From positions 1 through 64,000 of the forward strand of contig CAMDQN010000009.1 in the NCBI GenBank assembly GCA_945905925.1: DNA of 64,000 nt. Direction: 5' to 3'. The DNA is from Singulisphaera sp. GP187. GTDB lineage: Bacteria > Planctomycetota > Planctomycetia > Gemmatales > Gemmataceae. The translations under genes were made by a program, and so were the position numbers. Numbering within the stretch: position 1 is the stretch's first letter; every line of letters starts with the position of its first letter. The notes below the pieces were generated by a model that did no database searches, had not been told where the DNA came from, and saw only the letters and a program-made list of their open reading frames with translations. Shown here piece by piece: positions 40,548 to 43,055 of the stretch.

Positions 40548-41333
40548 TTACTTCGGACTCACGTCGAAATCAGTCGGCTTCATCTCCATCGTCTTGGCGC
40601 CTTGCGGGAGCGCGATCTCGATCACGTCGCCGGCGCGGCCCTTCGCGCCGCCGCGAACGCCGTTCTCGTGCCAGTACACGACGCGGAACTTACCGGCCGG
40701 TGCGTTCGCGATCGAAAACTTCCCGTCCTCGTCCGTTACCGCGTAATACGGGTGATCGAAGATCCGCACGTAACCGGTCATCCACGGGTGAATCGTGCAC
40801 TTGTATTGGATCGGCGCACTCTCCTTCTTGAGCGCCGGCAGTTTAAAGTCCATTTGCTTGGGAATGGTCGGGTTGTGCGAGCCGTTCTCGGCGCTCTCCC
40901 AGAAGAAGTTGTGCGCGATCGCGGCCGGGTTCTTCACGACGATCGTGTCACCGACGCGCGCAGTCGTGATGCGATTCACGAACATGCAACACGGTTGATC
41001 GATCACCACCTCTTCAGCTTTGCGCTTCGCGTCGTTGGGGTGAATCTGCTCCTTCGCGAACACGGCCTTCAGGTCGTTGTCGTCCGGGCGCAGGTACACC
41101 ACCACGTTTTTGATCCCGCGGTTCTTCGCGTTCACCAAAACCGATTCGTCGAGGATCGCGCCTTTCGCGAGGCACGCGACCGCGTCGGGACCGACCACCT
41201 TGAGTTCGGCGCGCTTCGGAATGTCCTTGTCGGCCGGGAACACCACCTGTCCTTTGACTGTCACCCACTTGTCTTGCGCGGTCACGATGGATGCGAGCGC
41301 GCAGCAGCACACGCACGACAACAGTAGTCGCAT
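40548..41333 (-). CDS. Secreted cupredoxin-like protein with intact copper ligands
   Basis: A 261-residue exported protein. Signal LLLSCVCCCALASIVTAQ, then a carboxypeptidase-regulatory-like beta domain and a cupredoxin fold. A complete type-1-copper-like ligand set is visible: His141 in IAHNFFW, Cys179, His182 and Met185 in YKCTIHPWMTGY. The end repeats AVTDEDGKFSIANAPAGKFR (regulatory beta domain). It is 33 bases downstream of the sigma-factor fusion (41367-42983), and its sequence is closely paralogous to the C-terminal half of that fusion. Electron transfer or copper binding in the periplasm is likely. Confidence 0.85.
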   Translation of the reverse strand: MRLLLSCVCCCALASIVTAQDKWVTVKGQVVFPADKDIPKRAELKVVGPDAVACLAKGAILDESVLVNAKNRGIKNVVVYLRPDDNDLKAVFAKEQIHPNDAKRKAEEVVIDQPCCMFVNRITTARVGDTIVVKNPAAIAHNFFWESAENGSHNPTIPKQMDFKLPALKKESAPIQYKCTIHPWMTGYVRIFDHPYYAVTDEDGKFSIANAPAGKFRVVYWHENGVRGGAKGRAGDVIEIALPQGAKTMEMKPTDFDVSPK

Positions 41334-41366
41334 GGAAACACCTTGAGGTAATGGAACCAGGGAACG

Positions 41367-42983
41367 TTACCGAGAGGCCCAGCTATCACTCTTGAACGGA
41401 AGCAAGTCGAGTTCCTGCTTCCCGGTGCGGCTTTCGGGGATCGTCACCTTCTCACCGAGTTTGCCGGGCGCACCGTCGCGGTAGCCAACGGTTTCGTGCC
41501 ACACGACGAGCCGCCACTTGCCCGCGGGCGCGTTCGCGATCGAAAACTTACCGTTGGCATCCGTGACCGCGAAGTACGGGTGATCGAACGCCCACACGTA
41601 GCCCTTCATCCACGGGTAGATGTTCGACGTGTATGCGTCGGGCGAGCGCATCGCCGGGAGCGGTTTCGCGGTGTGCGACATGCCCTTGCCGATCAGCACG
41701 TTGAACTCGCGCCTGGCTCCGTTGTCGAGTTGGAACGCGGTGTAAAGCACGTTCGTCGGGACCGGTAAGCGGTTATCGAAGACGACGTTGTCGCCGGCCC
41801 GCGCCGCGAGCACCCGCGGCATGAACTGTCCGCGAACCGCGAGGACCGTGTGTTCTTGCGCTTCCGGCTTTGCGAGGCCGGGGTGAATTCTCTCCGCGGG
41901 GAAGTCGGCTTTTTTGTCGTCCGAATCCGGGCGTAGCCACACCACCGCGTTCGCGATGCCGCGGTTCTGCGCGTGAACCAGTACGTCCTCGTGCAGCAGC
42001 GGCGCGAACGGCTTCCACACGTCCACGTCCTTGACGCCGTCGGTGACGCTCTTCACATCAGGAATCGCCTGATCCTTCGGGAACACCACACGCCCCGACA
42101 CGGTCACCCACGGTTTCAGCACGACCGCGCGGGGTGCCGGCTCGAACGCGGGCTTCGGTTGCGCCGCGTGCGCGGTAATCGGAACGGGAAGCGAGTTCTC
42201 CGCCGCTTCGTTCGCGAGTCCAAACGCGATGCCGCCGACCACGATCGCGACCACGGCAACCGCGGACGCGAGCTTCGCACTGATGCCGCGCCGGAGCGCC
42301 TCGGCAGCGAGCGCGGCACTTGCGGGTGAAGACGCGAGTGCGGGGACCGCGGCGCGAGCCGGGGACGCGAGCGCCCCGGTGAGCAACCCCAACCCGAGCG
42401 TCACACCGCGACGGGCCAATCGCGAGCGCAGAAGTTCCTTCCCGCGATCGAGCCGACGGCGCAGCGTGCTGAGACTCCAGCCGAGTTCGCGTGCGGCTTC
42501 GTCGTGCGTGCGCTCTTCGAGAAAGCACGCGACCAGCGCCGCGCGAAGTTCCTCGGGCATCGCACCGAGTTCTTCGTCGAGTACGCGAAGGAGATCATCG
42601 AAATCTGCGGAGGGTGGCGTGTCTTCGCACTTCATCAGGGGGCTTACGCCCCCCGCTCGCCCGGATCGCTTCGCGCGGCGCTGTTCGTGGCGGCGCGCCG
42701 CGAGACCGACGCGCCGCGCGACACCGAACAGCCACCCGCCCACCGAAGTCGCTTCCGTCGCGCCTTTCGGGTTGCGGGCCAGCACGAGAAACACCGCCTG
42801 GAATGCGTCTTCCGCGAGGTGCGCGTCGCGAACGACCCGCCGACACACGCTAAAGACGAGCCGGCCGTGTCGCTTCACGAGTTGTTCAAATGCCAGTTGG
42901 TCGTGTTGTTCGACGAAACGGCTCAACAGCGCGCGATCATCGAGCGAGGCGAGCGGGTTTGGCAGTCGAACGCGAACGGACAT
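41367..42983 (-). CDS. ECF sigma factor fused to a membrane-anchored pseudo-cupredoxin domain
   Basis: A 538-residue protein. Residues 10-105 are an ECF region 2 (LVKRHGRLVFSVCRRVVRDA, AEDAFQAVFLVLARNP, GGWLFGVARRVGLAARR) and 130-190 a region 4 (MPEELRAALVACFLEERTHD, AARELGWSLSTLRRRLDRGK). Between them a half copy of element A adds SGRAGGVSPLMKCE. Residues 238-256 form a membrane helix (LASAVAVVAIVVGGIAFGLA), so residues from 260 on are outside. That part is paralogous to the neighbour 40548-41333, but the copper ligands are changed: His141 to Thr410, Cys179 to Ser453, His182 to Tyr456; only Met is kept. Start at ATG 42983, preceded by GGAG. Confidence 0.9.
   Translation of the reverse strand: MSVRVRLPNPLASLDDRALLSRFVEQHDQLAFEQLVKRHGRLVFSVCRRVVRDAHLAEDAFQAVFLVLARNPKGATEATSVGGWLFGVARRVGLAARRHEQRRAKRSGRAGGVSPLMKCEDTPPSADFDDLLRVLDEELGAMPEELRAALVACFLEERTHDEAARELGWSLSTLRRRLDRGKELLRSRLARRGVTLGLGLLTGALASPARAAVPALASSPASAALAAEALRRGISAKLASAVAVVAIVVGGIAFGLANEAAENSLPVPITAHAAQPKPAFEPAPRAVVLKPWVTVSGRVVFPKDQAIPDVKSVTDGVKDVDVWKPFAPLLHEDVLVHAQNRGIANAVVWLRPDSDDKKADFPAERIHPGLAKPEAQEHTVLAVRGQFMPRVLAARAGDNVVFDNRLPVPTNVLYTAFQLDNGARREFNVLIGKGMSHTAKPLPAMRSPDAYTSNIYPWMKGYVWAFDHPYFAVTDANGKFSIANAPAGKWRLVVWHETVGYRDGAPGKLGEKVTIPESRTGKQELDLLPFKSDSWASR
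42633..42662. repeat. Element A, half copy inside the sigma-factor gene (A5)
   Basis: CAGGGGGCTTACGCCCCCCG followed by CTCGCCC is the right half of element A. It encodes part of the linker between sigma regions 2 and 4 (minus-strand reading SGRAGGVSPLM). Confidence 0.8.
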
Positions 42984-43055
42984 CGGCAGCACTCCGCAAG
43001 AGCGTCTACCTGTATCATGTCCGGCCGCACGGTGAAATGTTCAGAAAAAGTGGAG

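Follow-up and report, generated by a model that had tools for sequence, protein, structure and literature searches.

A predicted membrane-anchored ECF sigma factor with a ligandless cupredoxin extension and its co-encoded, ligand-bearing secreted paralogue in a planctomycete

Introduction

A kind of ECF sigma factor with a long C-terminal extension has been described in planctomycetes as ECF57 (PMC8999054), and the Gemmataceae have an expanded set of ECF paralogues (PMC8567305). Members of ECF57 have two conserved cysteines, in sigma2 and sigma4, and WD40-like repeats are prevalent but not universal in their extensions (PMC8999054). A link between a sigma factor's own extension and copper is known from CorE of Myxococcus xanthus, a copper-responsive sigma factor with a Cys-rich extension (PMC3107203); CorE and CorE2 are placed in ECF44, now ECF238 (PMC3107203, PMC8999054). 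Membrane tethering is known from IutY (ECF243), for which proteolytic release has been shown, and from the fused anti-sigma types ECF48, ECF52 and ECF53, which are thought to be freed by proteolysis (PMC8999054).

Here we analyse a two-gene locus in a 64,000-nucleotide stretch of planctomycete DNA (the window), where P0001, an ECF sigma factor with a predicted membrane helix and a cupredoxin-type extension devoid of copper ligands, is encoded beside P0002, a predicted secreted paralogue that has kept them. Gemmata-type bacteria possess tens of long-extension sigma factors, and the locus bears on how such factors receive their signals.

Results

The gene for P0001 (538 aa) occupies positions 41367..42983 on the minus strand and is separated by 33 bases from the gene for P0002 (261 aa), which lies on the same strand at 40548..41333; coordinates and reading frames of both agree with the original prediction. 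Pfam, TIGR02937 and structure concordantly define P0001 as an ECF sigma factor consisting of sigma2 and sigma4 only: region 2 covers residues 35-103 (42675..42881, minus strand; PF04542, E 2.9e-10), region 4 covers residues 133-185 (42429..42587, minus strand; PF08281, E 3.8e-10), and the TIGR02937 match is above cut-off. The model of region 2 superposed on E. coli sigmaE with Z 12.7 and 1.6 A over 91 residues, the structural matches of P0001 to sigmaE ranging overall from Z 12.1 to 12.7.

The C-terminal extension comprises residues 196-538 and contains no Cys. Its residues 238-256 (42216..42272, minus strand) are the most hydrophobic 19-residue segment of the whole protein (Kyte-Doolittle 2.49), and the equivalent segment ranked highest in 18 of the 19 fused homologues scanned and second in the other, which upholds the single membrane helix originally proposed there. 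A second helix at residues 197-215, directly after region 4, would place the following domain inside the cell; this candidate was rejected because its hydrophobicity scores were clearly non-spanning. With one helix and the sigma part inside, the outer part is predicted to lie outside the cell, in agreement with the signal peptide predicted on P0002. No anti-sigma or zinc-finger domain was recognisable by Pfam between region 4 and the helix. The genome encodes four further ECF sigma factors with a hydrophobic segment (L174, L175, L179, L180), each with a different C-terminal extension.

The predicted extracytoplasmic extension, residues 292-538 (41370..42110, minus strand), amounts to about 245 residues, rather than the roughly 280 first assumed. 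BLASTP aligned 242 residues of P0001 with P0002 at 43% identity (E 5e-56), far beyond chance, and the ligand columns were aligned as well. Both proteins adopt a cupredoxin fold in their AlphaFold models. In P0002 (mean pLDDT 91.6), the fold was located by structural alignment at residues 104-193 (40755..41024, minus strand), which matched Cupredoxin_1 4hcf with Z 13.1 and 1.6 A over 84 residues and amicyanin 4p5r with Z 11.9 at 26% identity, within an overall range of Z 11.9-13.2; a profile of the P0002 family matched amicyanin in the PDB with E 4.6e-7 and the H-C-H-M ligand columns in register. In P0001, the fold spans residues 375-466 (41586-41861), which matched plastocyanin 2gim and amicyanin 1sf3 with Z 11.9; pLDDT, taken in blocks of ten, is about 77-96 over most of the outer part and under 50 in the linker and helix. 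The type-1 copper ligand set His/Cys/His/Met is present in P0002 as H141/C179/H182/M185, making it a candidate type-1 copper protein by fold and ligand set. Opposite these residues P0001 has T410/S453/Y456/M459, of which M459 is the sole ligand kept, and it also lacks equivalents of the conserved Cys pair of P0002, C54 and C116, the latter invariant in the secreted family. The paralogy, the common fold and the contrast of a dead and a live ligand set, all put forward in the original prediction, were thus borne out. So the fused copy has, as modelled, retained the fold and lost the ligands, and it cannot hold type-1 copper in the usual way. The C-terminus of P0002 gave a weak CarboxypepD_reg-like match. 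Elsewhere, the genome encodes another secreted cupredoxin with 70% identity to P0002 (L055:9121-9954); the genes around it (contig 80) offered no functional clue.

The domain was present in 87 of 95 genomes of the family and the sigma-fused ligandless copy in 16 of 19 genomes of the genus, although the sigma half was lost to the contig end in three of these 16. All 16 encode a ligand-bearing secreted copy downstream on the same strand, with gaps of 32 to 315 bases. The first His and the Cys of the type-1 set are missing in every ligandless copy, and the replacement residues follow the subclades (T/S/Y or H/M, F/D/H/V, plus a few others). Hence the conserved pairing and the non-random ligand change that the original prediction depended on were both found, and an artefact of one strain can be rejected, as the arrangement occurs in 16 genomes, some of them assembled in one to four contigs. 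The fused copy was not found in the genus genomes G022 and G024. In G017, the start of the orthologous sigma gene and its promoter were detected (L202:5946-6626), and the contig ends before the extension.

Ligand-bearing counterparts exist: H-C-H-M is kept in the sigma-fused copies of six genomes from five genera (G092, G051, G006, G044, G047 and G032) and, with few exceptions, in a set of more than 100 secreted relatives drawn from several phyla. Among the relatives that have names, Gemmata sp. IIL30 is ligandless and Limnoglobus roseus PX52 bears the ligands. The fusion of G092 is accompanied by a downstream partner; no partner copy was seen within the stretch read around each of the other five. 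Among the best three candidates from each of 392 genomes phylum-wide, the full fusion was recovered from this genome only, a slight hint that it may be restricted to the family.

Comparison of 14 loci showed that the pair is what they all have in common, which agrees with the proposed lack of a separate anti-sigma gene. The flanking genes vary by subclade (manA or uppP upstream) and the pair itself remains together. No copper-transport or copper-related gene was noticed as a conserved neighbour among the neighbours listed for these loci. In Fimbriiglobus sp. 339R, two tandem unfused cupredoxins are encoded at L052:7374-9331, the second with altered ligands (I/C/H/L), representing another changed copy adjoining an intact one.

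The ligandless copies form one clade (support 97), inside a clade (support 100) that also includes the ligand-bearing fusion of G092. Since fused copies outside the ligandless clade, from other genera, keep all ligands, the loss in the fused domain is, as judged from the sequences, a derived event. Pairing probably preceded it, because G092, which clusters with the ligandless clade, has an intact fusion as well as a partner; this order is the one expected if metal binding shifted to the partner. As the co-occurrence is phylogenetically nested and the ligandless copies are one clade, pairing and ligand loss together amount to roughly a single event in evolution. In comparisons of related genomes, dN/dS (NG86) was 0.12-0.28 for the ligandless domain, 0.15-0.28 for the partner and 0.11-0.18 for the sigma part. 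These estimates indicate that purifying selection maintains the ligandless domain. Moreover, the ligandless copies gained the clade-specific conserved residues F326, D333, D449 and W464. Random decay of the domain was rejected on the grounds of dN/dS, clade structure and these residues. The fusion of G032 (L066:4737-6530), with intact ligands, has a sigma half that groups with paralogues of its own genome (85/85). This suggests that sigma-cupredoxin fusions arose more than once, G032 alone looking independent in a sigma-half tree whose resolution is poor outside the genus clade.

Thirty bases upstream of the sigma gene lies a 30-base ECF-type promoter-like element, TGAACA-N15-CGGACATGAT (43014..43043, minus strand). 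Aligned upstream regions of 14 orthologous sigma genes contain TGARCA-N15-SGGACATGAT with invariant spacing, and a pattern with a spacer one base longer missed every sigma-gene site, a sign that the spacing is strict. When up to three mismatches were allowed in six genomes (G000, G009-G013), with a reversed pattern as control, the sigma-gene site was the only one with at most two mismatches in each genome; the remaining sites all had three and occurred at about the control rate. In G009, about 70 sigma genes of this type coexist with one such site. An exact-pattern search of the 19 genus genomes, in which loose spacing admitted a few other sites, gave no match in G022 and G024. Because the element is unique to the sigma-gene locus in the six genomes tested, a self-controlled operon is suggested: in the simplest reading, the sigma factor would read its own promoter and its regulon would be its own operon, with weaker sites possible.

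Discussion

We propose that P0001 and P0002 form a two-gene, self-controlled signalling unit in which the outer domain serves as receptor, contact with P0002 being its most likely input; we assign this reading a probability of roughly 45%. The single helix would hold the sigma factor at the inner face of the membrane, and the outer cupredoxin fold, carrying no type-1 copper, would serve as a receptor that senses the condition of the cell envelope, most likely through contact with P0002, whether loaded with metal or apo, oxidised or reduced. Once this contact changes, the sigma part would be freed or activated, with proteolysis of the IutY kind as the probable route, and the sigma factor would in turn transcribe its own operon from 43014-43043, yielding more P0002 and more sigma factor. 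P0002 would thereby be the output and possibly a co-sensor of the ligandless receptor. Reading of this promoter by P0001 is a step that we infer from the uniqueness of the element, and the conserved promoter could also be read by another sigma factor; the contact between the two proteins, copper as the signal and release by proteolysis are suggested with less support. M50 (site-2-type) proteases, which are ordinary for bacteria, are encoded and could be candidates for cutting the helix. That the sigma gene and its partner belong to one unit is supported by flanking genes that change while the pair stays together, and the partner model by the occurrence of pairing in 16 of 16 ligandless genomes versus none seen at five intact fusions. 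That the locus senses copper or redox state is our hypothesis. Its most specific form, a closed one-operon circuit in which the ligandless receptor responds to its secreted paralogue according to the latter's copper or redox state, the sensing chemistry having passed from the receptor to a diffusible partner in the course of evolution, is conceivable and rather doubtful.

The evidence for the pair can be read differently. The outer domain might sense something else on its own, such as a small molecule, an envelope fragment or a copper-free redox signal, with P0002 merely a target. Cupredoxin folds are reusable, the new conserved residues are common to the ligandless copies, and the operon position of P0002 alone would equally fit a pure output role; this possibility leaves unexplained, however, why, apart from the sigma gene, the domain's own paralogue is the one target recognised, and why five ligand-bearing fusions elsewhere do without the partner. 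We consider it a possible but somewhat unlikely account.

Markedly less probable is that the domain persists as a leftover anchor or stabiliser of an ancestral copper-sensing fusion, activity being set by expression level or by proteins encoded elsewhere. A single loss of the copper ligands, with replacements that then varied (T/S/Y or H/M versus F/D/H/V), would be consistent with such a remnant, but purifying selection across the full domain, the retained fold, its presence in 16 of 19 genomes and the new clade-specific conserved residues argue against it. We give slightly less weight still to the idea that the fused domain is itself the sensor and holds a metal with a different set of ligands, such as Cu(I) via M459 and a His or Tyr at 456: most of the 16 copies still have the Met, and several have His at the third position, yet no copper-capable residue set is constant, the FDHV clade has neither Cys nor Met, and the extra Cys pair of the family (C54 and C116 in P0002) has been lost too.

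For one of the long-extension sigma factors, the locus offers an outer fold that can be recognised, a candidate ligand encoded alongside and a defined promoter apparently serving one operon, and the ligand-bearing and ligandless fusions provide natural before-and-after variants, so that signal input and output could be tested with few constructs. In a literature search that reached few of the subscription journals, no earlier description of a sigma-cupredoxin fusion was found; new here are the cupredoxin extension, the loss of ligands throughout a clade next to an intact partner, and a promoter dedicated to the locus.

Compared with described systems, P0001 looks like a member of the ECF57 kind, judged by its described features rather than by an ECF57 model or tree: it has regions 2 and 4, a long C-terminal extension and a planctomycete host, and its C47 (region 2) and C153 (region 4) are invariant in 13 homologues. 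It differs in that the extension, which gave no Pfam match to WD40-like repeats, contains a cupredoxin fold and has a secreted paralogue encoded beside it. With CorE it has in common that the sigma factor's own C-terminal extension relates to copper and that there is no separate anti-sigma factor. In CorE, however, the domain is Cys-rich and 38 residues long, and no membrane part has been reported, whereas P0001 is predicted to be membrane-anchored, with a cupredoxin-type extension lacking copper ligands, and its sequence contains neither a C-terminal Cys-rich domain nor a CXC between sigma2 and sigma4. The helix after sigma4, as predicted from hydrophobicity, resembles the arrangement in IutY and ECF48/52/53, from which P0001 is set apart by the lack of a Pfam-recognisable anti-sigma domain before the helix. 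P0002 shares with amicyanin the fold and the short C-X2-H-X2-M ligand loop and departs from amicyanin and Cupredoxin_1 (4p5r, 4hcf) in its extra flanking parts and conserved Cys pair, while the fused copy departs from them in having no ligands. P0001 and P0002 present a clear example of a regulator that has lost a metal site which its paired paralogue retains.
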